Source: Jaenimonas drosophilae (taxonomy: Eukaryota; Euglenozoa; Kinetoplastea; Trypanosomatida; Trypanosomatidae). From it: 64,000 bases of DNA. Of the stretch, positions 14,601-44,874 are shown piece after piece (the stretch's first letter is position 1; every line of letters begins with the position of its first letter). The notes under the pieces are model-generated. The model was given only the letters and a program-made list of their open reading frames with translations, was not told the origin of the DNA and did no database searches. Both the position numbers and the translations under genes were made by a program. Location of the stretch: NCBI GenBank assembly GCA_030849065.1, contig JASAON010001626.1, forward strand, positions 1 through 64,000, written 5' to 3'.

Positions 14601-17600
14601 AGTACCTCTGCATGAGTCTGCGGGTGAAGTAGTACCTCCAGCGGATGGCACCCTGCACTCCGCCGCACAACAAGAGCTGTGGAGATCCTTCCTCACCTCC
14701 AACATCCCCTCCGCCCTCGCTCTGCGCGAGGCTGGTGCGGAAGATTTGCCAGTCCGACAACTTAGAGAGATTCTTGCCTCGCAAGAGCTCGGTGATGATG
14801 ATGATCTGCACACCATCGTCATGGATACGAAGGATGGCCATCCTACCATTCGGCGAACATCGATGCCATCCAACGCCCTTTGGAACTCAATGCTCACGGC
14901 ACCCAATGTAGTACCTCTACATGAGTCTGGCAATGTGGCCGAGGTGGCTGCTCCCGCAGAAAACGAACTCCGCTCAGCCGGCCAGCAGGAGCTGTGGAAG
15001 TCCTTCATGACCTCCAACATTCCATCTGCTCTAGCGCTGCAAGAGGCTGGTGCGGAAGATTTGCCCGCACGGCAGTTGCGAGAGATTCTTGCCTCCCAAG
15101 AGCTTGGCAACGATGATGATCTGCACACCATCGTCATGGATACGAAGGATGGCCACCCCACCATTCATCGGCCATCTATGCCATCCAACGCCCTTTGGAA
15201 CTCAATGCTCACGGCACCCAATGTAGTACCTCTGCATGAGTCTGGCCATGTGGCCGAGGTGGCTGCTCCCGCAGAGAACGAACTGCACTCAGACGGTCAG
15301 CAGGAGCTGTGGAAGTCCTTCATGACCTCCAACATTCCATCTGCTCTAGCGCTGCATGAGGCTGGTGCGGAAGATATGCCCGTGCGGCAGCTTCGGGAGA
15401 TACTCCTCTCGCAAGAGCTCGGTGATGATGATGATCTTCGCTCCATCAACATGGATACGAAGGATGGCCAACCAACCATTCATCAGAAATCAATGGAATC
15501 CAACGCCCTGTGGGCATCGCTGCTCACGGCACCCAACGTAGTACCTCTGCATGAGTCTGCAGGTGGTGCGGAAGTAGCACCTGATGATGGCACCCTGCAC
15601 TCCGCCATGCAGCAGGAGCTGTGGAGATCCTTCCTGACCTCCAACATCCCCTCCGCCCTCGCCCTGCGCGAGGCTGGTGCGGAAGATATGCCCGTCCGAC
15701 AACTTAGAGAGATTCTTGCCTCGCAAGAGCTCGGTGATGATGATGATCTTCGCTCCATCAACATGGATACGAAGGATGGCCATCCTACCATTCATCGGCC
15801 ATCCATGCCATCCAACGCCCTGTGGAACTCAATGCTCACGGCACCCAATGTAGTACCTCTCCATGAGTCTGGCGGCGCTGCGGAAGCTCCACTGCCATCA
15901 GATGGCACGCTGCACTCTGCCGTGCAGCAGGACCTGTGGAGGTCGCTGCTCACCTCCAACATCCCCTCCGCCCTCGCCCTCCGCGACGCTGGAGCTGAGG
16001 ATATGCCAGCCAACCAGCTTCGCCAAATCCTCCTCTCGCAAGAGCTCGGTGATGATGATGATCTTCGCTCCATCAACATGGATACGAAGGATGGCCAACC
16101 AACCATTCATCGCAAATCAATGGAATCCAATGCGCTGTGGAACTCAATGCTCACGGCACCCAATGTAGTACCTCTACATGAGTCTGCGGGTGGTGCTGCC
16201 GTAGGACCAGATGATGGCACCCTGCACTCCGCCGCACAACAAGAGCTGTGGAGGTCCTTCCTCACCTCCAACGTGCCATCCGCCCTCGCCCTGCGCGAGG
16301 CTGGCGTGGATGCGCTCCCGCTTCGTATCATTCGCGATCGCATTCTCTCCGCGGAGCTCAGTGGCACTCAACACCACCTCTCTTCCCAAGACGGCATCGA
16401 GCTGGGCGAGGACGGAGATGGCTTTGCCGCCGTGAAGGTGGCCCATCATCAGCAACTGTGGTCGCGAGAGCTCACCTCCGAACGAAGCCGCACCGCCAGC
16501 TTAACGGGCATGGCGATGCATAGCACGCACGCACAGGAGCCAACGGAGCTCTGGAACTCCACCGGCCACTCCCTCTATCCAGAGGCACTTCGTCTAGAGT
16601 CATCGGGAGGTGCTTCTGCCAACGCACACCACCTCTGGCGCTCTGCTGAATCCGACGGCAGCGAGCCCAAGGTGATGAGCTTCGGCTCACGCCCACACGC
16701 GGTCTACGAGCCACACACACCCTACACGCCGAGCTCCATCATTCGTCGCAAGACGAGCACAACCGTGAAGAGCACCACACACTTTGATGAGTCGGTGCCA
16801 GTGACGACGCACCACGTTGTGTTCGAAGGAGATGAGTGGGCTGATATTCTCCGGCACTATCCGAAGTTGGTCCATGACACCTTCGTGCATGATGCGAGTG
16901 GTGGTTTGGGGATCGGTGCCGACCACATTGAGGATGTTCGCTTCACGATTGGCAGCCTCCACGTGGATTTTACGGTACGTCCTGGAAGTGGGGTCTCGTC
17001 GGATGAGGTACATCGACGCCTCCATGCGCATCTCTTTCCCTTGATGAATGCGCTGCGGGCGAGGAGGATCGCCGCCCCAGCCACCACGGAACGTGCAGAG
17101 ACGGTGAGCTTGCCCACGCTGGGTGAGAAGGGCTCCATCCTTCACGAGGATGCCATGTTGGCTGATGATGTGGCGAGGCAGGGCGAGGCGGCACGAGAAC
17201 AAACGGTGAGCTTGCCCACATTGGGTGAGAAGGGCTCCATTCTTCGTGAAGATGCCATGTTGGCTGATGATGTCGCACGTCCAGAACACGCCGTACGTGC
17301 CAACACCGTCAGCCTGCCCAGTTTGGGAAACCTCTCCGCGCTGCGCATCTCCCTTGACCGTCCTGGTGCAATGCCATCGGAGCACACACGCGATGCCACA
17401 GTGAGCATCTTTGGCGAGGATGGGTCCGACCTCTTCTCGCTCTACGACATTACATCCGATGGCCACCACACCGTGCGTGCGGAGCTCAACCGCGCCAACA
17501 CCACGAGCTTGGCAAGCGCCGAGGAGCACTCCGTCGGCATCTTCACCACCACACATCATCGAGAGTTTGCCAATCACACGTGGAACAACGCCATGCGCGA

Positions 17601-19962
17601 TGCGGCGGTGGCCGTTGTGCGCAGCGTGGTTCTTGACGTGACCGATGCCCTGGCCCTCCCTCCCTTGTGCGTAACGAACGTCCGTGTAGAAGCTGGGCCA
17701 CCCTTCCATATCATGTATGAGGTGCTTCACCCACACATGCTCTCCGCCAATGAGGAGGGCGTCGTGGAGATGCAGCTCGAGGCCTACGACTTCCCGCTCC
17801 TGAATAAACTACGTGATGATGAACGAGATGTGAGCGTTGATCAGCTCATCTGCCCTGAATCGCGTGTGGCACTGAAGGTTGGCCGTCTTCGCGCCGCCGC
17901 CACACGCGGACGCAGTGAGAAGGAGAAGCGCCTCACCACGGCGACGGTGGTGCATCATCATGATGTGCCCGCCGATGCCGCTCTTGACCTTCGTCTTGAG
18001 CTGCTGCCTCTTGGGGTTCCCATGACGGTGAGCGCGTTGCAGCGCATCTTCACGGAGGTGAAGGAGGTGTGGTCAAGGGTACTCATCACCGACCCGGAGC
18101 TGCTCCAGCAAACCTTCGAGGCCGATATATCGCAGTGCGTGGACTTGCCGTGCTCCAACGTGGAAGATACGGAGATCAATGAAGGTCCGCCCATGATGTT
18201 TGCCTTCCGCCTCCGCCATCCGGCGCGTGAGCTGACGGAGCATGTGCAGGCCCAAGTAGATGCCTACGACTTCCCCCTCATGCATCTGCTGATTGATGCG
18301 CAGGAGGGCAGGTACAGCATGGCCACCTTCCTTGCACGCGTGCAACATGCCCGCTTGCAGGAACGTGGTGGTGGGGAGGTGGATGATGGCTTCAACGATA
18401 CGGGCAACTCCATGGACCGGATCCTCGATGACCGTGGAAAACGTTTGCTCAAGGCGAGCATGTCAAGCATGGTGATGGAGGACATCCCAGGACGTACATC
18501 GCTGCCCGAAGCGGACTTCTCTCTCCGCGAGAGTGTTCTCCTCCCCGCGGTGGAGCAGGCGAGCTCACCACGCCTCACCCCTGAGGAGGAGATGGAGCTC
18601 AACCTGCTCCACGATGAGACCAAGTTGGCTGGAACGGAGGTGCTGTGGCGTGTTGTGGTGGATTCGGACGAGATGCTGGACCGCGAGCGCATTCAGCGGC
18701 AGTGCATCGCCGATGAGGAGGCCATCCGCCGTGGTGAGCGCGGTCGGGAGAGCTGCCGCATCTTGGAGCAGCTCGACCGCGAGCGCATTCGCCGTGAAGA
18801 AATCAATGCCCGGGATCAGCTGCGCGCGGAGATGCACGAGAGCAAACCGCGCGTGGATCACGAGTGGAGATCCACGGAATTGCGTCAAGCAGAGTCCAGC
18901 GAGATGCGTTCGCGCAGTGTGAGTGTGCTGCCACCACTACGCCCACACGCCGCCATGACCCGCCCCGTCTTGGCCCCGGCACCCCCGCCAATCTCCGTGC
19001 CTCGGCCAACGAAGCTACCACGTCTACGCCGCCATCGCGCACCCTTCATTCCCATCGAGTCAGACGGTTTTGTTGGGCTTCGTGGCTTGCAGAATCCGTA
19101 CCGCCAACGCCTTCAGGCCGATCACCGGCAGCTCGCGGAGCTCCAGCTCATCTATCCCTTCAACGCACTGCAGTTTGAGCTTCACAATCCCGCCGCCGTC
19201 TACGCCCACTACTGCCGGCTCTACTGCGTGGACCCGAACAGCCACGTGGTGAGTGCGTTGGATGCATGTGTCTCGGCCAAGGCACCGAGCTACTCCGCCA
19301 TGGATGATCCAATTGATCTCTCCATGCTCGATCCCGCCCGCCTCTCCACGGTGGAGCACCTCTCCGTGCCACACGCCATCATCAAGGATGCTGGTTTTCT
19401 GCCCCTCGTGGAGCTCCTCCGGTGGTGCCCGCAGCTCACGGTGCTCGATATCTCCGACAACGAACTCACAAATGAACCTGTAGAGTGGATGGTCCACGCC
19501 GCCGCACATCTCGGCAATGAGGAGCTTCTTCAGTCCGCCATCCCCGCCATCGCCGCCATCCAACCCGAAGACCTCAAGGCGCTTCGGCAATCCCCGTGGA
19601 GCTCCTCGGTTGGTGAAAGCAGCAGTAGTGGGGTGTTGCAGGTGAGCGAGCCCAGCGGTGGTGCCACGACGGCCACCACGACGAGCTCCGAGGAGGTTGA
19701 GCCGCGTCTCAGCTCGCAGCTCACGCAGGCGATCCCCATTCTTCAGGCTCATCGTGAAGAGCTCACGGCACGCTACCGGTGTGCGCTGAGTAGGCTGGAG
19801 CACATTGTGGCGGACCACAACACCTTTAGTATTGGTGCGTTGCGCATGTTTGAGGTGCTCATTGATGAGGTGCCATCGATCGAGTCTATTGAGCTCCGCG
19901 GGGCGGTGATTCGGCCACTTCTTGGTGTGGTGCCCCTGGCAGATCCAAAGATCGTGTTGTGA
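11686..19962 (+). CDS. Giant LW-repeat protein, FAZ1-like domains and LRR end
   Basis: A 2758-residue soluble protein. The first in-frame ATG (11686) precedes PPGL-QLFD-LW at 13-22; the open frame upstream starts at TTG and encodes UTR-like poly-Asn. An LRDEDGNLVRVVVGR module lies at about 130. FAZ1-like domains are seen at about 274-360, 1706-1795, 1955-2045 and 2120-2205; the last two are divergent but keep the (Y/H)DFPL(M/L) end. Between the first and second lie two copies of a roughly 100-residue unit and seven of a roughly 105-residue unit, all built on short LW-centred motifs. A charged, probably helical R/E-rich segment lies at about 2340-2400. The C-terminus (about 2460-2758) has leucine-rich-repeat-like strands such as LTVLDISDNEL. 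A flagellar or cytoskeletal scaffold is the likeliest role, by inference. Confidence 0.85.
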   Translation: MNATGNSDSGQLPPGLQLFDLWKRETLQRQKHSARMPSTAGTASNVDDILFQPTPRRFKQRRPRSQHRAEDTATADTAPKPATWSDDGASTPDMDAMPRPVMAYQRPAPSTSVSSLTEDESEKSAPSGALRDEDGNLVRVVVGRRKQLLLGSDSSNESGKLPRLLDSEGHVREDSVEIPVDDFGSSGLRTPAGAEDALIGSSKYLSLLNTGSSASFRRIAELTAEALRRRRQRGNSPCSERRYAVDSEPMSCASESHASLSTSGSLLRPMIVSSHHCDFPGDWDWLVTNRPSIVQQTFARDAADGCRLKPHSIHNICFSPAGAVDFDVHHSDTIPTSTVKELLHEHNYPLVWALLASHRDGESDAGSAADLWGTQQTDCATPVAHLLRDLPEGDQMLWLTNPSEASMPHPMDLVDEPLRDSVPRQPRLLTVDEAPMASLGSSQELRASNNGAELGGSKSVSELWNTVSTDRSLPLARHLIHSSIQQSAGCLLAASRSMPTDAVLHQSIHNFVDEDEVPLSESAQRPARRAIGATADLPSAADSVVLHNNGLSDHAQLVQSLSILFNTVMSDDSIPLARRLIHSSIQQSNELRQLLSRSMASDDVLRTSLRNFLDEDEIPLSESAQRPTRRAIGATADLAASSDVVLLQNNKLTDHAQLVQSLSVLWNTNATEGGLPTAAQLIGDEDGVSYVLMGPQVEPTELHVLDSVVLHPRDSVEELRKGFSGSQLGSMADAEFPSRALAHFGDGDDQRLWESMASAPVAQPLYSTAVVPAAAAEALPTPAAVSTHDLWRSFMTSNVPAAIPMHEGGADSLQATQLRQILESQDLGNDDDLHTIVMDTKDGHPTIRRTSMPSNALWNSMLTAPNVVPLHESGNVAEVAAPAENELRSAGQQELWKSFMTSNIPSALALQEAGAEDMPVRQLREILLSQELGNDDDLHTIVMDTKDGHPTIRRTSMQSNALWNSMPTSPHVVPLHESAGEVVPPADGTLHSAAQQELWRSFLTSNIPSALALREAGAEDLPVRQLREILASQELGDDDDLHTIVMDTKDGHPTIRRTSMPSNALWNSMLTAPNVVPLHESGNVAEVAAPAENELRSAGQQELWKSFMTSNIPSALALQEAGAEDLPARQLREILASQELGNDDDLHTIVMDTKDGHPTIHRPSMPSNALWNSMLTAPNVVPLHESGHVAEVAAPAENELHSDGQQELWKSFMTSNIPSALALHEAGAEDMPVRQLREILLSQELGDDDDLRSINMDTKDGQPTIHQKSMESNALWASLLTAPNVVPLHESAGGAEVAPDDGTLHSAMQQELWRSFLTSNIPSALALREAGAEDMPVRQLREILASQELGDDDDLRSINMDTKDGHPTIHRPSMPSNALWNSMLTAPNVVPLHESGGAAEAPLPSDGTLHSAVQQDLWRSLLTSNIPSALALRDAGAEDMPANQLRQILLSQELGDDDDLRSINMDTKDGQPTIHRKSMESNALWNSMLTAPNVVPLHESAGGAAVGPDDGTLHSAAQQELWRSFLTSNVPSALALREAGVDALPLRIIRDRILSAELSGTQHHLSSQDGIELGEDGDGFAAVKVAHHQQLWSRELTSERSRTASLTGMAMHSTHAQEPTELWNSTGHSLYPEALRLESSGGASANAHHLWRSAESDGSEPKVMSFGSRPHAVYEPHTPYTPSSIIRRKTSTTVKSTTHFDESVPVTTHHVVFEGDEWADILRHYPKLVHDTFVHDASGGLGIGADHIEDVRFTIGSLHVDFTVRPGSGVSSDEVHRRLHAHLFPLMNALRARRIAAPATTERAETVSLPTLGEKGSILHEDAMLADDVARQGEAAREQTVSLPTLGEKGSILREDAMLADDVARPEHAVRANTVSLPSLGNLSALRISLDRPGAMPSEHTRDATVSIFGEDGSDLFSLYDITSDGHHTVRAELNRANTTSLASAEEHSVGIFTTTHHREFANHTWNNAMRDAAVAVVRSVVLDVTDALALPPLCVTNVRVEAGPPFHIMYEVLHPHMLSANEEGVVEMQLEAYDFPLLNKLRDDERDVSVDQLICPESRVALKVGRLRAAATRGRSEKEKRLTTATVVHHHDVPADAALDLRLELLPLGVPMTVSALQRIFTEVKEVWSRVLITDPELLQQTFEADISQCVDLPCSNVEDTEINEGPPMMFAFRLRHPARELTEHVQAQVDAYDFPLMHLLIDAQEGRYSMATFLARVQHARLQERGGGEVDDGFNDTGNSMDRILDDRGKRLLKASMSSMVMEDIPGRTSLPEADFSLRESVLLPAVEQASSPRLTPEEEMELNLLHDETKLAGTEVLWRVVVDSDEMLDRERIQRQCIADEEAIRRGERGRESCRILEQLDRERIRREEINARDQLRAEMHESKPRVDHEWRSTELRQAESSEMRSRSVSVLPPLRPHAAMTRPVLAPAPPPISVPRPTKLPRLRRHRAPFIPIESDGFVGLRGLQNPYRQRLQADHRQLAELQLIYPFNALQFELHNPAAVYAHYCRLYCVDPNSHVVSALDACVSAKAPSYSAMDDPIDLSMLDPARLSTVEHLSVPHAIIKDAGFLPLVELLRWCPQLTVLDISDNELTNEPVEWMVHAAAHLGNEELLQSAIPAIAAIQPEDLKALRQSPWSSSVGESSSSGVLQVSEPSGGATTATTTSSEEVEPRLSSQLTQAIPILQAHREELTARYRCALSRLEHIVADHNTFSIGALRMFEVLIDEVPSIESIELRGAVIRPLLGVVPLADPKIVL
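13063..13692 (+). repeat. Two-copy repeat of about 100 residues
   Basis: Both copies contain LARxLIHSSIQQS, DEDE(V/I)PLSESAQRP, RRAIGATADL and DHAQLVQSLS. The copies have diverged more than the array further downstream. Confidence 0.9.
14050..16315 (+). repeat. About 105-residue tandem repeat, 7 full plus 1 degenerate
   Basis: Each unit carries ELW(K/R)SF(M/L)TSNIPSALAL, RQLREIL-SQELG-DDDL, MDTKDG-PTI and LWNSMLTAPNVVPLHES. Two LW motifs per unit suggest the unit itself arose from an older duplication. The eighth copy (about 16240-16315) degenerates. Long stretches are nearly identical at the DNA level. Confidence 0.95.
17101..17283 (+). repeat. Two-copy 34-residue repeat
   Basis: TVSLPTLGEKGSIL followed by EDAMLADDVAR occurs twice about 102 bp apart, with a third partial start (TVSLPSLG) just after. 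Confidence 0.9.
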
Positions 19963-22288: not shown

Positions 22289-25200
22289 ATGGAGCGTAGT
22301 GCCACCACGATGCTCGGCAAGAGCAAGGTGGAGAAGCTGGACCACTTTCTAGATGAGCAGTGGCGCTTCTTCCCCTTCCTTGCCGAGCTACAATCCATTC
22401 CTGGTGAGTACCCACTCATTTTGATGTACGTGCACATCATCGTGGATGCGTTGCAGGTTCTCTCCCTCGCCCTCCTCCCGCAACACAACTGGGGCACCGT
22501 GATGACTGGCATGTTAGAGGCTCTCAATTTCAGCCACATTCCGTTGTATAGCTACCTCAATGCCGGCTTCTACGCCTGCTTCGCCGTCACCGCCATCCTC
22601 GCACTGGCCTTCATCATCATCTTCATCTACGTCGTCGTGCAGTGCCTGTACATGGACAACTACGTGCTGGGCTCCAGCATTCTGGATTGCTTCGCCTTCC
22701 GCGTGTTGCGCTCCTTTCTCTATCTCGCCAGCAGCATCCTCTTCGTTCCTTTTGTGGAGAATTTTGTGGCGGTGGCCTTCGTCAAGCCCAACAGCGATGG
22801 ATCTCTCTTGTGGTTCCCGAGCCACGCCACGGGAAACATACTCGTCTCCCTGGCCCTCGTCATCTCCATTGTTGGTGTGCTGCTTCATACCTTGGCTGCC
22901 GCTGCCTTTGGCATCTTTTTCCTGGACTGTGATACCAACAGCAGCCATCCACTGGCTCGGGGCCATGCGATGCTGGATAGCCCCTACCTCTTGTGGCGCC
23001 TTGTGTGCTGTGTGCTCTACCAGTACTTCTACGCCACAGACCAGATGGTCTATATGGGCGTCTTCATGGCCGTGAGCTCACTCCTCATGGCGTTGAGCTA
23101 CTCCGTCGTGATGCCCTACTACCGCGAGTGGGTGAACCGTGCCCGTATTGCCACATTGTGGGTGACATGCATCTACTCCATCTTTGCCTCCACCACCCAC
23201 GCCAGCACCGTCGAGGAGTCCTTCGTGACGAAGCAGAGCAACGCCGACGTTGCCGTCCTGTGTTGCACCTTCCCCATCGTGGCGTGGTTGGCCTACCACT
23301 ACGGCACACGTTTGCGTGTTTCTGGCATGTACGCACGCGCCATGCGTGCTCTGATGGAGGCCGATCTGGCCCACCCCGTCATTCACTTCCCCAAAAATCT
23401 TCCACGTGGGGTGGAGAGCTACACACGCAACTTGATGCTCCTCAACCGCCTCGAAGACATCACGTTGCGGCCCGACGATGATTCCGACAATGACTTTGCC
23501 GGTGAGTTTGATGATGAGGAGCTCGAGGATGAGATCGCTGCGCGCATCCGCGGTGATGAAGAAGAGTTTGGCATGGGCAAGTCCATCACTGACCGCACCC
23601 GAAAGCGTTTTCTCCTCAGCCGTTTTGTGTGCCCCTACGTCAACAGCGTTCTCATGCCCACCGATGTGGAGCTCTGCAACCGCTTCCTCTTGTACTATGG
23701 CTGGGCCACAGGGATTGAGCTCTCAGGCTATCAGATACGCTATGCCGCCACCATCTATCTCAAGGGCATGGCCAAGTACCCGGAACACTCCTTCCCGCGC
23801 TTTGCCTACGTCATCTTCCTGCTCCATCAGGTGCGCACGGCGCAGATTGCCCTTGACGTGCTCAAGGATTTTTCCCGACATGAATCGCCACTCTGGATTA
23901 GCTTTCAGGTGTGGCGGCTCGAAGGAAACGTCAGCCACGAGCTCCATCTGGGCCAGAACAACCGCGTCTCTGCCCTCAACCGCGCCAAGGACTCTCATCG
24001 TGAGGCGTTGCAGAGTACCACCGCTTTTTGGCACTTTCTTCTCAACTCACAACGCACCTACGGCGACTTGTCAGGGGTGAATTATGCCCTCATTGACTCT
24101 CAGACGAGGAGCAAGGCCATGTACCAGGTCTTGTTGGCGGGAGATGCGGGCAACATGGAGCTCCTCTCGTGCTACTCCATCTTCTGTGATCAGATCATTG
24201 ATGATCGCGACATGTCGGCGCAGTGCGTTCAGTTTATTCGCCAGGCGATTGAGACGCGTGAGCAGAACAAGATGCGTGGAGCCAAGATGAAGGCCGCAGT
24301 GGGTGCCTCCCTCACGCAGCTCAAGCTCTCCCTCAACGCCTCGTCCAAAGGGTCGGAGGAGTTTCTGCGGTCAAGCCCTGTGCTGTTCCTCCGCTCCACC
24401 CTCATCATCCTCTCCATCTTTGTGATGATGCTCCTTGTTGCCATCTTGGTTGTGATCGTCGTGTATTACAACAAGGTGCACTCCACGGAGCACTGCGTCT
24501 ACTACGTGAGTGCGCTTCGCACCCTTGCTACTCAGATTGCGGTGCAGGTGAGGATGATTCAGCTCAGCAACACACAGAGTCAGCCCATCGCGCGCTCCAT
24601 TCTCAACATTCTCGATGCCTACCGCACCGACTTCATGTCCATCTTCAATGAAGTGACGTTTGGCACAGAGTCCAGCGTGGACTCCTCCGTGCGCCAGTTC
24701 TACCGCACCTACGCTGTGCGCAACGTGGAGCCTGGCATGAACCTCAACTACTGGTCGTTCTTCAGCATCTTTTTGGGGGGCTTGATGGATATCATCGCCC
24801 GACCCACGGAGAGCGTCTACATTGATTGGATTGCGGGCTCCTTCATTAACGAGGCCACCACCGCTCTCAACCAGGCCGTGGACATCTTTGATGCGCAACT
24901 CAAGAGCCAAGTACGCATGCTGAACCGCATCTGCATACCTCTCCTCGCCGCTGGCATACTCCTGCAAGGTGTCATTGCCCTGCTCATCTTTCACAGCATC
25001 TTCCGCGTGAAGGGCATCCGCTCCACCACCTTTGGCCTTCTTCGCTTGATCCCTGTGGCGGAGATCAACATCATTTATAAGCGATCACTCCGGCAACACC
25101 TCGGCCTCGACGCCTTCTTTGGCCTCCCCACACGTGATAAGGTACTCCGCCTCATCTCCGCGATGGAAGAGGTGAATCGTCTCAAGATGGAGCGAGGCGG

Positions 25201-28200
25201 CCAAGACACCTACTACTCTCTCCTGCAGCGTGCGGCTGATCTGCGGCCCATGGATGCCATCTCTGCCCGCACCTTGTTGCGGAGCATGAAACCTGGTGGA
25301 GCTGGTGATGCCAAGGCTCAGGATGATGATGATGGCGATACACACTCGGAGAGCGATCATGATATCTGGGCGCACGATGACTCCGAGGAGAGTGATGGGG
25401 GTACCGACTCTGACACCGATCATGGAGCATCCAACAACAACAGCAGCAGCAACAACAACAACAATAATAATAGTAATGTGAATGAGCAATCTGCATCGGC
25501 TGTGGGAGGCGCGGAAGGTTTGGCGGGTGGGGCAGCCGCGGCCAAGACGGCCTCCTCCACACGTCGTCGGCAAAAGAAGCGTCGCAACCAACGTCAGGAG
25601 GAAGAGAATGAGGTGGAGCATCAATCCATCATCTCCGAGCAAACCTTCTTGTTAAGCCACGACCGCCTGAGCTCCCGCAGCTCCTCCTTCACCCTGCGCT
25701 CAGCCTTCCTCTTCTTCGTGTGCATTGGCCTCGCCGTGGCCATTATTGTGATCAACTCCGTTACGATGAGCGACCCCAATGATGCCGAGGACTACTACAG
25801 CAACTTGATGAATGAGCTTGTGTTGCTACGAACCACACAACTCCACGTCATTCGGGCGCTTCTCAGCGCCGCCAGCTTCAACATTCTTGGCCAGCAGCGC
25901 TACTTTGCCGAGTACGTGGCGATACGTGGCACCAACGACGTGGAGAACGTGCGCATCAACATCTCTCCGCAAATGACGGATATCTCCACGAGCTCCGTCT
26001 TCTTCCAGTTCAGCAAGATGTACGGCGCCATTATGGAGGTGCTCGATATCTCCGTGCGACTGAGCTGCTCAAACTACATGGATAACTGCCACACCAACCA
26101 AGAGAGCTTTGAGCAGGTGTACTTGGCCAACCTAACGTGGGGCAATGAGGCCGATCTCGTCATGTGCAATCATGCCCCACAGCTTGGCATCTACTGGACT
26201 GATTTTCCCGGCCTCAATAACTCTGAGGTGGCCTTCTCCCTCACCGAGGCGCAACAACAGACGATGGGTGCCTCCATTCTGCAATCGCACCTCATCAACG
26301 ACTACGTGGCCATCTTCTTCACCACCCTTGAGGATCTCGGTGGCACCTCCAGCGACAGCTCCATCACCCACCTCCGCAACTTTTCGTGGGTGTCGGTGGT
26401 GATGGGCGTCATACTCACCCTCCTCCTCGCGTGGGCGGCGTGGGAATCGCACCAGTCGGCACCACTTCTTCGTCGCCGCACCATTTGGTTCCTACGTGCG
26501 GTTGGCATTCTCAGCGCCGTGACCATTGTGGTGCTTTCCTCCATCAACGTGGCCAAGCTCACCAACATTAGTGGCACCAACGTGATTCAGGAGGTGTATC
26601 AAACGTGCAGCACGTGGACCGTCGTCATTTACGACTTCCTCTGGTACCCGCTCCTCTATCTGCAAACCTACAACATGTACTGGAACTACAAGCTCTACGA
26701 ACTGCGCACCACCTACAAGGACTGGCAGCTCGTGGATGCCATGATGAATATAAACCCTGGCGGCAACTACTCCTCCGCCACCCTCGCCGCCCTCGCTCAG
26801 TCAGAGAAGCTCAATCTCATTGGCATGGCACTCGTCTTCGCCGCCACCAAGAATGATCCCAACATTCTACCGTACAGCTCCATCTTTGACGGGCAGTACC
26901 TCGAGAACGTTTCGTGGGATTTTACCGCGGAAGCAGACTACCTCAACGTCTTGGCCACCTACAGCCCCGTTGACCCGCTCTTCTACAGCACCACAGCAGC
27001 CGATCTCGCCCTGCCACAGGCGCAGATGATTAGCTTGGCCGCCAACACCATCATCTCCAACCGCCAAGACAACGCCGTTGAAAACCTCTTCACCTTCATC
27101 ACCCAAACGGAGGTGAGCGTGCAATCCACCCTCGACACCCTCATACATAACTTGCAAGTACGTCGTCGGCTAATGACGGTGAGCATCATCATGAGCGGGG
27201 TGGTGCTCTTCTGCGTCTTGACATGCTTCGTCTTGGCGGTGGTGCTGCACTCACTCAGCTTCGTCCGGGCCACCAAGAAGCCCACCGTCTCGAGCGATCC
27301 ACGCTCGATGACCAACAGCCGCAGCGCCGACGATGGCGGGGAAGGGGCAGATGATGATCCGGCCGCCTCTGCACGTGCAGCTCTCGCGGGGAGTGCCGCC
27401 GTTGGCAGTGCTGCATCTGGCGCCAGCAGTGGCGGTGGTGGTGGTGGTACGGCGAGTGTGCAGGGAAGTGAGCGTGGTGGTGTTGCCGTGGACGCCATGT
27501 CGGATGCGAGCAAGAAGCGCCAGCAACAACGTCAGCAGAGTGCCTCAGATAATCTCATGAGCAGCCAAGCAGCGGAGCGCGGCAGCTCCCGCAATTCCTA
27601 CTGGCACGTTGCTCTACCCTTCATTTGCCTGTCGGTGGTGTCGCTGCTCATGTTGGCCATCATCATCGTTCTCCTCGTTTCCGTCGGAGAGATTGAGGGC
27701 CAGGCCATCCTCGTGAAGGATTCCACGATGCGGTCGTGGACGGTGTGTATGTCAATCTTCTATAGCGCACCGGCTGTTGTGAGTGAATCCCAGTACGTCA
27801 GTGCCATGGCACAGCTCCAGCTGCTCTACGCCCAACAACAACAAGTAATCAATCAGCTCTACTTCAAGAACGTAACTGACACGAGCAGCGGTTATGGCAT
27901 CATTATGGATGATGCGGAGCAGGATGAGATTCTCTTCGCACGCAACAAGTTCTACGACACGCTCAGCTTCCTAGGCCCGGTGGCCACCATTCAGAACAGC
28001 GACGGCTTCCAGGTTCTGCCAACTGCATCCACGCAGAACACCACCTCCACCACCGCGAGCAACACCGATCTCTTCTGTAGCGCGGTGCAACAGGAGGCGG
28101 TGATGCAAACTTATGCACGTGGTGTTGGATTGATGTACGACGCGGTGTGGCCAAACTTCCTGCGTCGGGCCTTCAGTGGTAGCTACACCGCCTTCAATGA

Positions 28201-31200
28201 GAGCTACCAATCCATGAGTGCCGTTTACACCAACCTACTCGTGGGCATTGACCAATCCAACAGTCAGTACTTCAACCACGCACAACACGTCATCAACACC
28301 TACATGATCGTCCTGATCATTCTCCTCATCGTTGCCATCATCATTGTCGCGCTCATTGCCATTTGCGTTCTCTTTCCCTTTGCGATGCACCTCATCCACG
28401 AAGATGCCAACAGCCGCACGTTGCTAAAGTGTGTGCCGCCAGATATTCGTGCTCGATACCCGGTCCTCACCGACTTCCTGAGCAACGACACACGTGTGCT
28501 GAGTGATGCAGAGCGGCTCAACGAAACCATGTCGGAGATGGTGCGGAGCGCCGTGGTGGTGTCCGATCACCGCGGGCGCATCATTCGCTTCAATGAGCTC
28601 GCCGAGAAGCTCTTTGGCTACAGCACCGCAGAGATCATCAATCGCAACGTATCGGCCCTCATGACAGAAGAAGATGCGCGCAATCATCAGCAGTACCTCG
28701 ACAACTTTCACCCCGACACCGCGCGCATCGTCAATCGCACGCGTGAGATCATCGCGCGGCGACGAGATGGACGACGCATGACGTGCTCATTGCGGCTGCA
28801 GGCGCTGACGCTGCCCGCCAAGGGTGAGCAAGTATTCATCGCCTTCTTCAAGCCGACAGAGGATCGCCATCGTCTGGCCCTGATGGAGCAGATTAACTTC
28901 GCCGCCTTTGATATGAGCGTGGATGGGATGATCCTCACGGATGAGAAGGGAAACATCCTGCGCGTCAACGAGGCCTGCGCCACCTTCTTTGGCTACGATC
29001 GTGAGGAGCTCGTGGAGCAGAACGTGAAGGTGCTGATGCCCAGCGATATTGCCGCACGCCATGATGACTACCTAGCCTCCTACGCCAAGAGCGGGGTGAA
29101 GCGCAAGATTGATTCCACGACCATCGTGCATGGCATCACCAAGAGTGGCACCAAACACCGTCTTCACCTCACCGTGAAGGAGATCGTCTCCATGTCAGAG
29201 CACCGCTGCTTCCTTGGGTTTTTGAAGAATGATGTGCGCATCCGCACCATTGAGGCGTCGAGCAGCATTCATGAATCCTTGTTGGCGCTCTCCCCCGTGC
29301 CGATCCTCGTCGGTGACGAACGCGGCGTCATTCGTGAGGTCTCGCGGAGTGCCATGGACACCTTGCAGTACCGTCAGGATGAGTTGGTGGGGATGAATAT
29401 CAAGGATGTGCTGCCGCCCGAGTGTGGCAATCCCAGTGAGGTGCTCTACGTGGAGAAGCATCTCGAGCCCGGCAGCGGCCACGTCGTGAGCGTGGAACCC
29501 ATGAATTTGACGGCGCGCAAGAAGGACGAGAGCACCTTCCCCGTGGTTCTCTCGCAGTGTACCGTGCCGCGTGAGAATGATCTTGACGCCAACGTTGCGG
29601 TGGCATACCTCAACGACTTTAGCAAGACGCTGAAGCTCATTGAGTCGGGCAACCTGACCTACGCCATCTTGCTGAGCAACGTCTTCCCTGTCATTGTGAT
29701 GAGCATTACGGGCATCATTAGCTTCATCAACACCGCGGGTGTGGCGTGCTTCGGATATACAAGTGCCGAGGAGCTGCAGGGGAAGAGCTGCGGTGTCCTT
29801 GGTCATGCCGAAGTTCGCGTGCATTCGGAGGTGGCCACCAACTCGGAACAACAAACGTGGCTCGGCGACTACGCCACCACACGCGATGATAGCGGCCTCA
29901 ACGTGCTGCGCACCGTGATTTGCCTCAGACGCGATGGTACGGAGTTCCCGGCGGAGCTGCGCCTGGCCAAGATTCCGTCGGTGCAGGGCGCGGAGTCCAA
30001 CCTCATCGCCTTCCTCCGCGATCTAACCACCGACATGCAAGTGCGTTTACGCTACCACGTGAATGAGACGATGCATAGCCTCTGCCCAAGTGGCATCCTC
30101 GTGGTGAGCGTGGAGGGCAGGGTGGAGAGCATGTCACCTGCGGCAGAAGAATGTTTTGGCTATCACTCGAGTGAGGTGCTCGGTGCGAGCATTCAGGTGC
30201 TGATTCCCATGTTAGGGAAGGTGGTGGAGGCGGAGGATGGCGAGCGAGCGACGCCCATGGCAACGTGGGGCTCCCGTCCACGCCGCCTCAGCCGCCCAAC
30301 CAACGTGAAGGGCGGCCGCTCTGGTGGTGGTGGTGGTGGTGCCAACGACAACAACCATCATGGTGGTGATGCCTCGGATGCCACGGTGGCGGTTGGGGAG
30401 ATTGTGAATGAGCAGCGCGTCATGACGGCGAAGCGTTGTGATGGCCGCCTCTTCTCCATCTCCGTCTTCACGCAAGAGGTTGGTGCCGCGATTGGCCCTG
30501 GCCACCAACTCTTCGTTTTGTACTGCGATGACATCAGCCAAGAACGTGAAAATCGCGAGAAGACGAGCCTCAACCGGCAGGTACGTGGCCAGTTTGATCT
30601 CCCCATTGTGCAGCTCGACCGGAGTGGCACCATTGTGTACGCCAACGCACCCTTTTATAGTGAGTTGCGCTACGATGGCAGTCGTGGCAAGACCGATCCG
30701 GTTGGCAAATCCTTCTCAACCCTCTTCGCCTCCACCGAGGATGCCACGCACTACATGCATCGATTGCAACATGCCGCGGGCATGGCCACCACACGTGAGG
30801 AGGAGCGCCGCCGTAGCACCGTGAGCACCCCTAATGCGGTGATGTACGTTTTGGTTCCTGGCGAGCGTCATGTGCTTCTCCGTCGTGGCGATCACTCAGA
30901 ACTTCTCGCGCACTGCCGCTTGGCGGTGGTGCGCTCCAAGAACACGGGCAGCATTAATTTTGTGGCATATCTCACCGGGGCCGAAGACGAACGTGAGGCA
31001 CACGCGCGCAACCACCTCACCAACGCCATTCTCGAAGCCAGCAGCATTCCCATGGTGGTGGCCGACTACACCGGGTGCATCTACAAGGTCTCCGCATCTC
31101 TCGCGAAGCTCTTTGGTTATGATGCGGTGGATGATCTTGTCGGGCAGCCCGTTGGCACCCTCGTGCCCGACCACCTCGCCGTGGATCACGCCAACTACAT

Positions 31201-34198
31201 TCTCAACTACATTACAACACGCAAGAAGGGCATCATGCTTGGCAATCGTGTCACTCAGATGGCGCGCCACCGCGATGGCAGCACCTTCCCCGTAGAGGTG
31301 CACCTCCGCGCCATTGACGAAGGTGGCGATCAGCCCATCTTCATGGCCACCATCATCAGCACCGCCGAAGATACGCAAGCTGCGCAGAGTGCCAAAATGA
31401 CGAGCCAAATGCTGCGGCAGATGTCAATGCCGGTGCTCGTTACGAACCGCGAGGGCATTCTGGAGAATGTGAATGCGGCCCTGTGCGAGGCCTTTGGCTA
31501 TGACGAGGAGGCGGAGCTCATTGGCCAGGATGTGAGCATCCTGATGCTCCCCGAGGAGGCGCAGTTTCATCGCCGCCACATTGCCAACTACTTCAAGACG
31601 GGCATCCGCTTCTCGCTGGATAACACCATTTTGCGCACCGTGCGCAAGAAGGGTGGTGAGATCATGAAGATGAACGTTCTCGTGAAGCAGGTGGACCCGG
31701 TGAGCGGGGATAAGAAGGACATCCGCTTCATTGGCTATCTCTCGCACGAATCAACGACGGTGGAGAATGCAACGAGCACACAAATCTCCACGATCCGACG
31801 CGGAGCGGCAGGTACGCCCGCCCTTGGCGCATCCAACACGGGAGGTGGTAGCACCGGTGCCGCATCCCGCGCAGAGGCCGCCGCCTTCTCCGTGGGTGAA
31901 GTTAATGATCATCGCGTGCGGCCGCTCAGTGCGTGGTTGAAGGAGGAGCTTGGCATTCCCTTCATCGTTACAGATGAGGATGGCATGATCTTGTGCCTCT
32001 CTCAGGCCGCGGAAACGATTTGCGGGTGCTCCTCCATTGATGTGGTTGAGCGCCCCCTCGCCGCCGCCCTCTCACGCGATGCGCAACGCACCAAAGTTTC
32101 CGCCACCCTCCGAGAGATTTACGAGGCGCTCGCCAATGACCGCCACTCCGACGCACGTCGTGGTGCCTCCGCGGCAGCCACACGCCCGTGGACCATCACC
32201 GCCCAACGCCGATCCGGCGAATGTTTCCCACTCCTCTTACACTTCAAGCCCGTGGAGAGCGATGGCGCCACCCTGCATAACCCTGACGTGCAGGCGCACT
32301 ACTCACCACAAACGGTATACGTCGTGCATCTCGAGGACCTCACGCAGCCCATCGAGCACAGACGTCTGAAGGAGATTTGCGACGACGCCCTCGCGCGCTG
32401 CCGTGTGCCAACCATCATCATGGATATCGAGGGTAAGGTGAAGCTCTTCAATGAGGCAGCGGAGAAGTGCTTTGGTTGGTTGGCGGACGATGTGCTCGGC
32501 AACAACGTATCCATGTTGATGCCGGAGGCCACCGCCGCGATGCATGACGGCTTCGTGCAGGCCTATTTGCTCACCCGTGAGCGCCACATCATTGGCGGAA
32601 GCCGCGCCATCACCGCCAAGCGCCGGAACCAAACCACATTTGCCGCCACCCTCTTCGTGAATGAGGTGGAGGAGGCACACGCGCACTTCTTCCTCGGCCA
32701 TATCATTGATGTGTCGGAGGACGCTCGCATCGAGGTGATGGCGGTGTTGAGCCGCACCCTCGTCGCGCAATCCACGGAGAAGCTCGTCCTCTTGGATGAG
32801 GAAGGCGCCATTCAGCAGCTCTCACCCGCCGCGCACCAGCTCCTCGGTCTTACCCCGCCCACACCGCAATCGATGCGCGCCAACAACAGCAACAACACCA
32901 CGAATGCCGCGGCGGGCATGACGACGGCCGACTTCTTCACCCCCAGCGTATCGAAGCTCTTCTCCCAGTTTGTGCAGCAACACCGTGAAGCAGCAGCAGC
33001 AGCAGCCACAACGGCAACATCATCATCATCGGGTGTTGTTGGTGGTGGTGGCGAGCATGATGAAGAGTGGGTGCGCATGATGGAGGATGGATCTAGTGCC
33101 GAAACACGTGCGAAGGCATTCTTGGCAAAGTCTCCCGAAACGAGCTTCCCCAGCGTATTTATTCGTCGCTCCGACGATACCAACGTTGCCATCAACATGC
33201 AGGTACGTCTCGTCTTGTGTGGCCCGGTGATGGCGGGCACGTTGCTGAAGCTGGAGGAGGCATCGGAGGAGGTGTTGGCGGGCAGCGACCGCGAACAAGA
33301 AAACCGCGCGCTCGCCGAGGGCACCGTCCGCTTCCTCTCACGCCCGCTCTTCATTGTGAACCGAAGTGGGCAGATTGTGCTCGTGAATCCATCCCTGGCT
33401 AAGTTGTTGGGCTACCGCGAGGTGCGAGAGGCGGAGCAGGTGTTGGTGGGTCAACGCATCAACGCCATGTTGCCGCAGATGTCTGTGCCGGAGCTGAAGT
33501 CAGGACGCGGTGGTGGCATCTCTTCACCATCGGCGGAGAGCGCACGTGAGCACAAGCAGGTGGATGTTAATCTCTACGAACACGAACGCTCATGTATTCA
33601 TGTGCTCGATGCCTTCCTCACCCACACAGGCGAGGATGCTGCCGGTGGCGGTGGTGGTGGACGTCGCAAGCTCAACGCCATGGCTGCCAACGGTGCCACG
33701 ATGGAGGTCTATCTCGAGCGCTTCTCCATCCTGAAGAGCGGAGATGGTGGCTCTGGCGCTGCGCGCTATGATTTGCACTTTTATGTTGGTGAGGTGCGCG
33801 ACGTGGAGTCGGTGCGGCGTGATGCCGTTCTCGATGGCGTCTCGGATTCCTTGTTGCAGCTCTCCCCCGTGGCGATGGTGATGATGGATCAAGTTGGCAA
33901 CATTGTTGAGGTGAACGACGCCCTCGAGCGGCTCTTTGACTTCAAGCGAGAACATCTCATCAACAAGAGCGTCATGATCCTTCTCGCACGTCAGGATCTC
34001 AACGAACGCAGCAGCGGCGATCGTGTGGATGAGCTCCTGCCCGAGGGAGAGAGCTCCATCGAATTGGAAACACGCACAGGAATTGCATTCCCGGCAACGG
34101 TCTTTGTGCGTCGCATGATCATCAATGGGCGTACCTGCGCCATTTGCTACGTGTGCCCGGAACATCTGCCCGATATGGATAGTGGCGGCCTGGCCTAA
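22289..34198 (+). CDS. Giant membrane protein with about 13 PAS domains (TmcB-like)
   Basis: A 3969-residue probable sensor. Residues 40-345 hold about seven or eight hydrophobic helices. Residues 440-690 are helical and resemble the TPR-like region of tiny macrocysts B/C (Tmc) proteins. Four pairs of transmembrane helices follow, at about 695-905, 1135-1390, 1395-1655 and 1772-2035. Each pair encloses 150-210 residues; loops 2-4 carry N-x-S/T sequons. Poly-Asn and poly-Gly linkers separate cytosolic parts. From about 2080 to the end about 13 PAS-like domains follow one another, with recurring D--G-I---N-A---FGY and VS-LMP signatures. No kinase, cyclase, phosphatase or DNA-binding domain follows the last PAS; the protein ends about 115 residues after that domain begins. 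No LOV cysteine motif was seen. The ligand, cofactor and output are unknown; the Tmc assignment is from memory of the architecture. Confidence 0.88.
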   Translation: MERSATTMLGKSKVEKLDHFLDEQWRFFPFLAELQSIPGEYPLILMYVHIIVDALQVLSLALLPQHNWGTVMTGMLEALNFSHIPLYSYLNAGFYACFAVTAILALAFIIIFIYVVVQCLYMDNYVLGSSILDCFAFRVLRSFLYLASSILFVPFVENFVAVAFVKPNSDGSLLWFPSHATGNILVSLALVISIVGVLLHTLAAAAFGIFFLDCDTNSSHPLARGHAMLDSPYLLWRLVCCVLYQYFYATDQMVYMGVFMAVSSLLMALSYSVVMPYYREWVNRARIATLWVTCIYSIFASTTHASTVEESFVTKQSNADVAVLCCTFPIVAWLAYHYGTRLRVSGMYARAMRALMEADLAHPVIHFPKNLPRGVESYTRNLMLLNRLEDITLRPDDDSDNDFAGEFDDEELEDEIAARIRGDEEEFGMGKSITDRTRKRFLLSRFVCPYVNSVLMPTDVELCNRFLLYYGWATGIELSGYQIRYAATIYLKGMAKYPEHSFPRFAYVIFLLHQVRTAQIALDVLKDFSRHESPLWISFQVWRLEGNVSHELHLGQNNRVSALNRAKDSHREALQSTTAFWHFLLNSQRTYGDLSGVNYALIDSQTRSKAMYQVLLAGDAGNMELLSCYSIFCDQIIDDRDMSAQCVQFIRQAIETREQNKMRGAKMKAAVGASLTQLKLSLNASSKGSEEFLRSSPVLFLRSTLIILSIFVMMLLVAILVVIVVYYNKVHSTEHCVYYVSALRTLATQIAVQVRMIQLSNTQSQPIARSILNILDAYRTDFMSIFNEVTFGTESSVDSSVRQFYRTYAVRNVEPGMNLNYWSFFSIFLGGLMDIIARPTESVYIDWIAGSFINEATTALNQAVDIFDAQLKSQVRMLNRICIPLLAAGILLQGVIALLIFHSIFRVKGIRSTTFGLLRLIPVAEINIIYKRSLRQHLGLDAFFGLPTRDKVLRLISAMEEVNRLKMERGGQDTYYSLLQRAADLRPMDAISARTLLRSMKPGGAGDAKAQDDDDGDTHSESDHDIWAHDDSEESDGGTDSDTDHGASNNNSSSNNNNNNNSNVNEQSASAVGGAEGLAGGAAAAKTASSTRRRQKKRRNQRQEEENEVEHQSIISEQTFLLSHDRLSSRSSSFTLRSAFLFFVCIGLAVAIIVINSVTMSDPNDAEDYYSNLMNELVLLRTTQLHVIRALLSAASFNILGQQRYFAEYVAIRGTNDVENVRINISPQMTDISTSSVFFQFSKMYGAIMEVLDISVRLSCSNYMDNCHTNQESFEQVYLANLTWGNEADLVMCNHAPQLGIYWTDFPGLNNSEVAFSLTEAQQQTMGASILQSHLINDYVAIFFTTLEDLGGTSSDSSITHLRNFSWVSVVMGVILTLLLAWAAWESHQSAPLLRRRTIWFLRAVGILSAVTIVVLSSINVAKLTNISGTNVIQEVYQTCSTWTVVIYDFLWYPLLYLQTYNMYWNYKLYELRTTYKDWQLVDAMMNINPGGNYSSATLAALAQSEKLNLIGMALVFAATKNDPNILPYSSIFDGQYLENVSWDFTAEADYLNVLATYSPVDPLFYSTTAADLALPQAQMISLAANTIISNRQDNAVENLFTFITQTEVSVQSTLDTLIHNLQVRRRLMTVSIIMSGVVLFCVLTCFVLAVVLHSLSFVRATKKPTVSSDPRSMTNSRSADDGGEGADDDPAASARAALAGSAAVGSAASGASSGGGGGGTASVQGSERGGVAVDAMSDASKKRQQQRQQSASDNLMSSQAAERGSSRNSYWHVALPFICLSVVSLLMLAIIIVLLVSVGEIEGQAILVKDSTMRSWTVCMSIFYSAPAVVSESQYVSAMAQLQLLYAQQQQVINQLYFKNVTDTSSGYGIIMDDAEQDEILFARNKFYDTLSFLGPVATIQNSDGFQVLPTASTQNTTSTTASNTDLFCSAVQQEAVMQTYARGVGLMYDAVWPNFLRRAFSGSYTAFNESYQSMSAVYTNLLVGIDQSNSQYFNHAQHVINTYMIVLIILLIVAIIIVALIAICVLFPFAMHLIHEDANSRTLLKCVPPDIRARYPVLTDFLSNDTRVLSDAERLNETMSEMVRSAVVVSDHRGRIIRFNELAEKLFGYSTAEIINRNVSALMTEEDARNHQQYLDNFHPDTARIVNRTREIIARRRDGRRMTCSLRLQALTLPAKGEQVFIAFFKPTEDRHRLALMEQINFAAFDMSVDGMILTDEKGNILRVNEACATFFGYDREELVEQNVKVLMPSDIAARHDDYLASYAKSGVKRKIDSTTIVHGITKSGTKHRLHLTVKEIVSMSEHRCFLGFLKNDVRIRTIEASSSIHESLLALSPVPILVGDERGVIREVSRSAMDTLQYRQDELVGMNIKDVLPPECGNPSEVLYVEKHLEPGSGHVVSVEPMNLTARKKDESTFPVVLSQCTVPRENDLDANVAVAYLNDFSKTLKLIESGNLTYAILLSNVFPVIVMSITGIISFINTAGVACFGYTSAEELQGKSCGVLGHAEVRVHSEVATNSEQQTWLGDYATTRDDSGLNVLRTVICLRRDGTEFPAELRLAKIPSVQGAESNLIAFLRDLTTDMQVRLRYHVNETMHSLCPSGILVVSVEGRVESMSPAAEECFGYHSSEVLGASIQVLIPMLGKVVEAEDGERATPMATWGSRPRRLSRPTNVKGGRSGGGGGGANDNNHHGGDASDATVAVGEIVNEQRVMTAKRCDGRLFSISVFTQEVGAAIGPGHQLFVLYCDDISQERENREKTSLNRQVRGQFDLPIVQLDRSGTIVYANAPFYSELRYDGSRGKTDPVGKSFSTLFASTEDATHYMHRLQHAAGMATTREEERRRSTVSTPNAVMYVLVPGERHVLLRRGDHSELLAHCRLAVVRSKNTGSINFVAYLTGAEDEREAHARNHLTNAILEASSIPMVVADYTGCIYKVSASLAKLFGYDAVDDLVGQPVGTLVPDHLAVDHANYILNYITTRKKGIMLGNRVTQMARHRDGSTFPVEVHLRAIDEGGDQPIFMATIISTAEDTQAAQSAKMTSQMLRQMSMPVLVTNREGILENVNAALCEAFGYDEEAELIGQDVSILMLPEEAQFHRRHIANYFKTGIRFSLDNTILRTVRKKGGEIMKMNVLVKQVDPVSGDKKDIRFIGYLSHESTTVENATSTQISTIRRGAAGTPALGASNTGGGSTGAASRAEAAAFSVGEVNDHRVRPLSAWLKEELGIPFIVTDEDGMILCLSQAAETICGCSSIDVVERPLAAALSRDAQRTKVSATLREIYEALANDRHSDARRGASAAATRPWTITAQRRSGECFPLLLHFKPVESDGATLHNPDVQAHYSPQTVYVVHLEDLTQPIEHRRLKEICDDALARCRVPTIIMDIEGKVKLFNEAAEKCFGWLADDVLGNNVSMLMPEATAAMHDGFVQAYLLTRERHIIGGSRAITAKRRNQTTFAATLFVNEVEEAHAHFFLGHIIDVSEDARIEVMAVLSRTLVAQSTEKLVLLDEEGAIQQLSPAAHQLLGLTPPTPQSMRANNSNNTTNAAAGMTTADFFTPSVSKLFSQFVQQHREAAAAAATTATSSSSGVVGGGGEHDEEWVRMMEDGSSAETRAKAFLAKSPETSFPSVFIRRSDDTNVAINMQVRLVLCGPVMAGTLLKLEEASEEVLAGSDREQENRALAEGTVRFLSRPLFIVNRSGQIVLVNPSLAKLLGYREVREAEQVLVGQRINAMLPQMSVPELKSGRGGGISSPSAESAREHKQVDVNLYEHERSCIHVLDAFLTHTGEDAAGGGGGGRRKLNAMAANGATMEVYLERFSILKSGDGGSGAARYDLHFYVGEVRDVESVRRDAVLDGVSDSLLQLSPVAMVMMDQVGNIVEVNDALERLFDFKREHLINKSVMILLARQDLNERSSGDRVDELLPEGESSIELETRTGIAFPATVFVRRMIINGRTCAICYVCPEHLPDMDSGGLA

Positions 34199-44434: not shown

Positions 44435-44691
44435 TGATTATGATGAAGATGATGATGTGTTTGCGGGCTTAATCGAAACACCAAATCATTGTGCATCATG
44501 CGAAACGTACAATTCACTCCACCGTAGAAGTGCATCAGACGTTGCACGTAAGTACAGCGCGAGGATGCGATGGCTCATCGCGCTCACCCGCACAAAGACA
44601 CGATTCCTCTCTCCATCTCATTCTGATTCTGATTCCTCCACAACACACCAACACACACACACATTATATCATGTTGCACATCTCACTCTAC

Positions 44692-44723
<32 letters not shown>

Positions 44724-44874
44724 CAGTAAAGAGTTGGTACTAAGGAGGGTGGCACACGCACACACGCCTTTGGGCACCATCCATCACCACAGAACAACAA
44801 CACCACACACACTTACTACAGACGCACACGCACAGGTGTGGGTAGGATCTTCGTACTACCACTTCCACCACCAC
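44435..44874. other. Spacer before GCN1
   Basis: No gene supported. Contains GAT and CAT repeats (a run of about 11 ATC units near 44693-44722) and CA-rich sequence. The frame is open from 44491 but encodes poly-His and low-complexity sequence and is taken as 5' UTR. Confidence 0.55.

Follow-up and report, generated by a model that had tools for sequence, protein, structure and literature searches.

The gene described here lies on the forward strand of the window, by which we mean the whole 64,000-nucleotide stretch of Jaenimonas drosophilae DNA that was analysed (contig JASAON010001626.1). It is a single open frame of 3969 codons starting from ATG. Its product (P0001) has an N-terminal chassis (residues 1-2070) of membrane helices, a helical TPR-like part and four units in which an ectodomain lies between two transmembrane helices (TM-ectodomain-TM); this is followed by 13 PAS domains in residues 2075-3955. 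This architecture of chassis and array is nearly certain. The ectodomains would lie outside the cell or in a lumen, with the array in the cytoplasm. The interpretation we prefer, with a probability of roughly 45%, is that the protein is a TmcB-type multi-sensor membrane receptor whose intracellular PAS array is partly heme-binding and whose output is delivered in trans. The features are listed below; named residues are those of B. japonicum FixL (BjFixL), in which His200 is the ligand His.

22289..34198, + strand: whole gene, 3969 residues
22418..23314, + strand: N-terminal membrane-helix cluster (residues ~44-342), 5 helices over the hydropathy cut
23591..24370, + strand: helical TPR-like part (residues ~435-694)
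23975-24256, + strand: TPR_TmcB domain PF25474 (residues 563-656), within the TPR-like part
24404..24991, + strand: TM-ectodomain-TM unit 1 (residues 706-901), modelled as a chemoreceptor/NarQ-like four-helix bundle
25706..26437, + strand: TM-ectodomain-TM unit 2 (residues 1140-1383), from hydropathy
26498..27241, + strand: TM-ectodomain-TM unit 3 (residues 1404-1651), from hydropathy
27623..28363, + strand: TM-ectodomain-TM unit 4 (residues 1779-2025), from hydropathy
28391..28486, + strand: juxtamembrane element (residues 2035-2066), similar in PAS-array and cyclase members
28511..28864, + strand: PAS1 (residues 2075-2192), with His200, Tyr203, Ile215, Arg220 and Leu236
28886..29230, + strand: PAS2 (residues 2200-2314), ligand His present, Thr at Arg220
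29261..29626, + strand: PAS3 (residues 2325-2446), without ligand His
29651..30034, + strand: PAS4 (residues 2455-2582), without ligand His
30056..30544, + strand: PAS5 (residues 2590-2752), split by a Gly-rich insert, without ligand His
30563..30988, + strand: PAS6 (residues 2759-2900), His and Arg by script, unsure (insert-rich alignment)
31010..31369, + strand: PAS7 (residues 2908-3027), ligand His present, Arg220 hinging on one gap placement
31391..31753, + strand: PAS8 (residues 3035-3155), ligand His present, Ile at Arg220
31925..32347, + strand: PAS9 (residues 3213-3353), without ligand His
32369..32722, + strand: PAS10 (residues 3361-3478), closest to FixL
32732..33280, + strand: PAS11 (residues 3482-3664), weak, interrupted by a low-complexity insert, limits set by eye
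33305..33808, + strand: PAS12 (residues 3673-3840), with a Gly-rich insert, His and Arg by script, unsure
33836..34153, + strand: PAS13 (residues 3850-3955), without ligand His

Several family models recognise the array. In Pfam, PF00989 (323 bits, 11 stretches) and PF13426 (284 bits, 12 stretches) both have their best stretches in the C-terminal half; the NCBIfam model TIGR00229 (sensory_box) reaches 415 bits. Six PAS-type Pfam models besides PF00989 are above cut-off (PF13426, PF13188, PF08448, PF24820, PF08447 and PF08446). A PAS profile trained on P0001 and two paralogues from the same genome, C317 and C358, finds 14 pieces in residues 2075-3955; these become 13 when the two halves of an insert-split domain are counted as one PAS. 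The first-pass annotation had also counted 13 blocks running to the end of the gene, and the profile agrees with it. Its start (about 28540) and spacing hold only approximately: the first block begins at about 28511, and insert-bearing domains reach about 180 residues.

The count is weakest at two domains. PAS5 is divided by its Gly-rich insert, and in PAS11 the profile sees only 36 residues (3487-3522, 7 bits), the remainder being cut off by the low-complexity insert. PAS11 is accepted because the strand and helix order of a PAS is visible three times in an AlphaFold2 model of residues 3480-3969, and because Foldseek aligns this whole stretch to PpsR. PpsR, a protein with three PAS domains, takes the top three rows in Foldseek (E 2e-15, 491 columns, with TM-scores of only 0.19-0.25 and a root-mean-square deviation of 25). 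The model was built from a 4-row alignment and has a low mean predicted local distance difference test score (pLDDT) of 48.8, the PAS13 part being mostly at 57-78; VIA-align of the model is effectively a test of PAS13 alone.

No catalytic family is found in residues 2070-3969 by Pfam, NCBIfam or PDB sequence search; fold was checked for residues 3480-3969 only, in effect PAS13. A catalytic domain hidden in the array was rejected on the basis of these sequence searches. P0001 has no kinase domain match in Pfam or NCBIfam, and the class III cyclase family PF00211 is absent according to Pfam. The last PAS ends 14 residues before the C-terminus. The first-pass annotation is supported in that no output domain is found after or among the PAS domains; neither fewer than about eight PAS domains nor a concealed catalytic fold is seen, by sequence for the whole array and by fold for its C-terminal stretch only. 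The further claim that nothing recognisable is present holds for catalytic families. It does not hold more widely, as some proteins that share the chassis have a class III cyclase at their C-terminus and PAS10 resembles FixL.

In the PDB, PAS10 has FixL as its best relative, and so has PAS1 (E 1e-11). The alignment of PAS10 with B. japonicum FixL is gap-free over 104 residues (E 1e-21 for 1dp6, 3e-22 for 2cmn). PAS10 retains His200, His214, Ile215, Ile216, Gly217, Arg220 and Leu236; Arg206 is changed. According to PMC10765370, His200 of FixL coordinates the heme iron, Arg220 touches the bound ligand and Arg206 is important in signalling. Judged by sequence, PAS10 is a FixL-type heme PAS, and it is rather likely to bind heme. 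PAS1 probably does so too; PAS2, PAS7 and PAS8 perhaps do.

A script finds the ligand His in seven of the 13 PAS domains of P0001; five of these are well aligned (PAS1, 2, 7, 8 and 10), and the alignment of PAS6 and PAS12 is doubtful. Both His and Arg220 are found in four (PAS1, 6, 10 and 12), firmly only in PAS1 and PAS10. Across eight array proteins, including paralogues and relatives described below, the ligand column holds His in 54/104 PAS domains and the runner-up column, which is that of FixL His214, in 18/104; His and Arg220 occur together in 33/104. P0006 has the ligand His in 13/13 and the pair in 9/13; P0010 and C317 have the pair in only 1/13 and in 3/13, respectively. A control profile of six P0001 PAS domains, five of them without His, also has FixL as its best PDB match, at 49.9 bits versus 98.6 bits for a mainly His-bearing set; the latter includes PAS3, itself without His, and the control includes PAS3 and the doubtful PAS6.

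The PAS domains within one protein are very dissimilar, and PAS3, 4, 5, 9 and 13 do not have the heme His. Seven PAS-type Pfam models match above cut-off. This would suit an integrator in which distinct PAS domains bind distinct small molecules (heme, flavin, fatty acids) and together read metabolic state. We consider such an integrator unlikely: it has no support from ligands, flavin or other pocket motifs not having been looked for.

Protein searches, two of which scored the best 7978 and the best 1883 word-sharing candidates, found at least nine relatives (P0002-P0010). At least five of these, all taken from other datasets, have the array (P0002, P0006, P0008, P0009 and P0010). P0002 is 29% identical to the gene product across 99% of residues 1-2080. 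P0009 is without the N-terminal chassis and has the juxtamembrane element. P0003 (in precomputed Pfam data) and P0005 contain PF00211, and P0005 also contains PF25474. P0004 stops within ectodomain 4 and is perhaps incomplete; P0007, a fragment of 1365 residues, has a single PAS match.

The array is not a chance pattern, since relatives at 25-31% local identity retain it and 12 of the 13 P0001 PAS domains best match the same-numbered PAS of P0002; the best matches fall on the diagonal 12 times in either direction. The low-complexity inserts and the weakness of PAS11 could be taken as signs of an artefact, with PAS-like blocks arising by chance or two genes falsely fused. This is extremely improbable, as chassis and array are also joined in P0002, P0006 and P0008, which come from other datasets, with the same likeness by position. 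Among P0001 and these three proteins, same-position likeness is seen in 6/6 pairs (0/5000 permutations as high).

One counting rule gives 13 PAS domains in seven of the eight array proteins. C317 (3818 residues) and C358 (3734 residues) have 13 each, and P0006 has 13 stretches with each of two Pfam models. For P0002 the rule yields 12, including a weak piece; positioning its PAS11 and PAS12 by eye brings the number to 13. The thirteenth PAS of P0010 is partial (71 residues), and two in C358 are weak (7.7 and 10.3 bits). P0008 is 5490 residues long, with very long Gly/Gln/Asn-rich inserts that split its PAS domains; its count is still 13. No other number was seen in the eight proteins, among the matches listed, and a freely varying array was rejected on the same count. 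Same-position best matches between C317 and P0010 number 11/13 and 12/13 in the two directions; between C317 and P0009 they are weaker (5/13 and 2/13). In both comparisons 0/5000 permutations are as high. Across the array groups A, B and C, such likeness is weak or absent (A-B, p 0.026; B-C, p 0.003; A-C, p 0.26).

The paralogues among these proteins are about 20% identical in the chassis. Tandem arrays do not usually keep their repeat number so constant, and 13 in eight proteins, such distant paralogues included, calls for a structural reason. One possibility, which we rate as tentative, is that the array now binds no cofactor and is a pure scaffold: a rod whose fixed length serves to space or dock partners, its FixL-like residues being either relics or structural in role. 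The constant count despite widely differing sequences and the single His and Arg pair of P0010 favour this scaffold. It accords poorly with PAS10, which keeps most of the FixL pocket and has its His200 and Arg220 matched at the same position in P0002, P0006 and P0008 (4/4 of the P0001 group), and with the ligand His in every PAS of P0006.

Going by the shared count of 13, the array would probably have arisen once. The chassis tree does not unite the array proteins: its seven 13-PAS rows do not form one clade, and three changes are needed, of which the starred branches force at least two. P0009 was left out of this tree as it has no N-terminal chassis; the possibly incomplete P0004 drives part of the result, and C347, C349 and P0005 form long branches.

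The membrane and TPR-like regions noted in the first-pass annotation are present, as seen from hydropathy helices and from PF25474. The latter scores 32.6 bits in P0001, above the Pfam gathering score of 27. It is a family already known in Pfam; consequently, the proposal of an undescribed sensory system was too wide and is not upheld at the family level. PF25474 is also above cut-off in P0006 (42.0 bits), P0005 (37.1), C358 (28.0) and P0002 (27.5). C317 (22.7) and C349 (22.8) are below it as whole proteins and above it in a six-frame genome search (27.7 and 28.9); C347 is not matched by this model. The N-terminal membrane cluster has five helices over the hydropathy cut versus six to eight in the nine relatives compared. 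The unit 1 model superposes on the TM1-ligand domain-TM2 region of a bacterial chemoreceptor, with about 7-10% identity in chemoreceptor/NarQ rows. Units 2-4 are probably four-helix bundles of the same type.

The genome assembly (18.8 Mb, 370 contigs) yields five chassis proteins: P0001, C317, C358, C349 and C347. C349 (2111 residues; L013:890-7222) has the chassis and a single PAS. This C-terminal PAS has the FixL ligand His and not Arg220. C347 (2418 residues; L020:1892-9148), which matches P0001 residues 442-640 (E 1e-6), has a class III cyclase domain, PF00211, at the position where the array starts in P0001. Comparison of chassis profiles from PAS members and cyclase members by hhalign gives a probability of 100 (E 5e-79, 908 columns) for query columns 21-974 only, which extend to unit 1. 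Units 2-4 are alike in helix pattern by hydropathy, and the segment right after the last membrane helix in cyclase members resembles the one preceding PAS1 in array members. On these three grounds, the array occupies the place of the cyclase in its relatives.

There are 33 cyclase matches in the genome. Class III cyclases have a first metal-binding Asp, and their VNxAxR motif also has a role. The predicted cyclase of C347 has Ser at the first metal Asp; in P0003 and P0005, read by eye, this Asp is kept and the later VNxAxR motif differs. The two types are perhaps complementary half-sites.

Alignment of the N-terminal part between PAS and cyclase members, whatever the C-terminus, could also mean that output occurs in cis; here the effector would consist of the N-terminal membrane helices together with the TPR-like part, and the array would be only the input. 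This is improbable, as residues 1-2070 contain no channel or enzyme family above Pfam cut-off, fold searches having barely covered the N-terminal membrane cluster.

Output in trans is proposed because the stalk itself lacks an enzyme. In this receptor, the four membrane-anchored units, probably chemoreceptor-like four-helix bundles, would face the outside or a lumen, and ligands or the state of the membrane would act on the bundles. The signal would pass through helices into the conserved juxtamembrane element, which precedes the cyclase in sister proteins, and on to a stalk in the cytoplasm, probably a dimer, in which short helices link the 13 PAS domains. At least PAS10, together with PAS1 (probably) and PAS2, 7 and 8 (perhaps), would report oxygen (or nitric oxide or redox state) through heme in a FixL-type pocket; the remaining PAS domains would act as rungs of the dimer and as places for partners to dock. 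This stalk may assemble with chassis-sharing cyclases of the C347 type or with the kinases C236 and C342, which could dock by PAS-PAS pairing. C236 (L012:259-9450) and C342 (L018:1429-7001), found in the same genome, are protein kinases with two cyclic nucleotide monophosphate (cNMP)-binding stretches and one PAS. That the output runs through a cyclic-nucleotide system is conceivable, though we hold it with considerable reserve. A histidine kinase partner was rejected, as HisKA has 0 matches in the genome; other two-component families were not searched for.

A bolder version, which we regard as speculative, is a kinetoplastid receptor family in which a counted 13-PAS stalk with several heme sites (up to 13 in one relative) forms a multi-heme oxygen/nitric oxide gauge, fused to chemoreceptor-like ectodomains and swapped with a nucleotide cyclase on one chassis. 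On this view the count would stay at 13 because the stalk works as a structural ruler or forms a closed assembly rather than growing freely as a repeat.

The kinetoplastid origin suggested from the sequence is supported by PAS-PGK on contig C329 and by two neighbours of the gene that contain FAZ1_cons domains. These neighbours, at 2974-8019 (+ strand, 1681 residues) and 11686-19962 (+ strand, 2758 residues), have two and four FAZ1_cons stretches, respectively, and are predicted flagellum-attachment-zone-type proteins. A 2724-residue protein at 44671-52845 (+ strand) contains EF3/GCN1-type HEAT repeats and is possibly GCN1-like. A spliced-leader search of the assembly, which may be partial, gave no match to the patterns used and counts neither for nor against a kinetoplastid.

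To our knowledge, little is known about oxygen sensing in kinetoplastids. By combining FixL-type pockets with a chassis that cyclases also use, such a receptor would connect gas sensing to cyclic-nucleotide signalling in a concrete way that can be tested. The 13-fold array, the FixL-type pockets and the exchange with a cyclase were not found in a literature search that covered few subscription papers, among the matches listed. The PAS protein described in the accessible parts of the kinetoplastid papers found there is PAS-PGK.

P0001 can be compared with several known systems. It shares with TmcB/TmcC-type proteins, which we take to be the 'tiny macrocysts' proteins of Dictyostelium (a name not found in the literature search), the TPR_TmcB domain above curated cut-off and a long membrane chassis; it differs in its 13 C-terminal PAS domains, the likeness being drawn through the Pfam domain and not through Dictyostelium sequences. 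The TmcB-chassis cyclases C347, P0003 and P0005 have a homologous N-terminal chassis with a similar helix pattern and juxtamembrane element, but PF00211 in place of the array. The heme-PAS oxygen sensors FixL and DosP share with PAS1 and PAS10 the PAS fold and the pair of ligand His and distal Arg; unlike them, P0001 has no kinase or phosphodiesterase and joins 13 PAS domains to a membrane chassis of a eukaryote. Bacterial chemoreceptors and NarQ, in which a four-helix bundle lies between transmembrane helices, resemble the predicted fold of unit 1; P0001 appears to have four such units in one chain, and Pfam shows none of their signalling domains in it. PAS-PGK, which PMC7729029 reports from Bodo saltans, T. 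cruzi and Leishmania, is a PAS protein from the same group of organisms; it carries a single PAS on a glycolytic enzyme, in contrast to the 13 of P0001.
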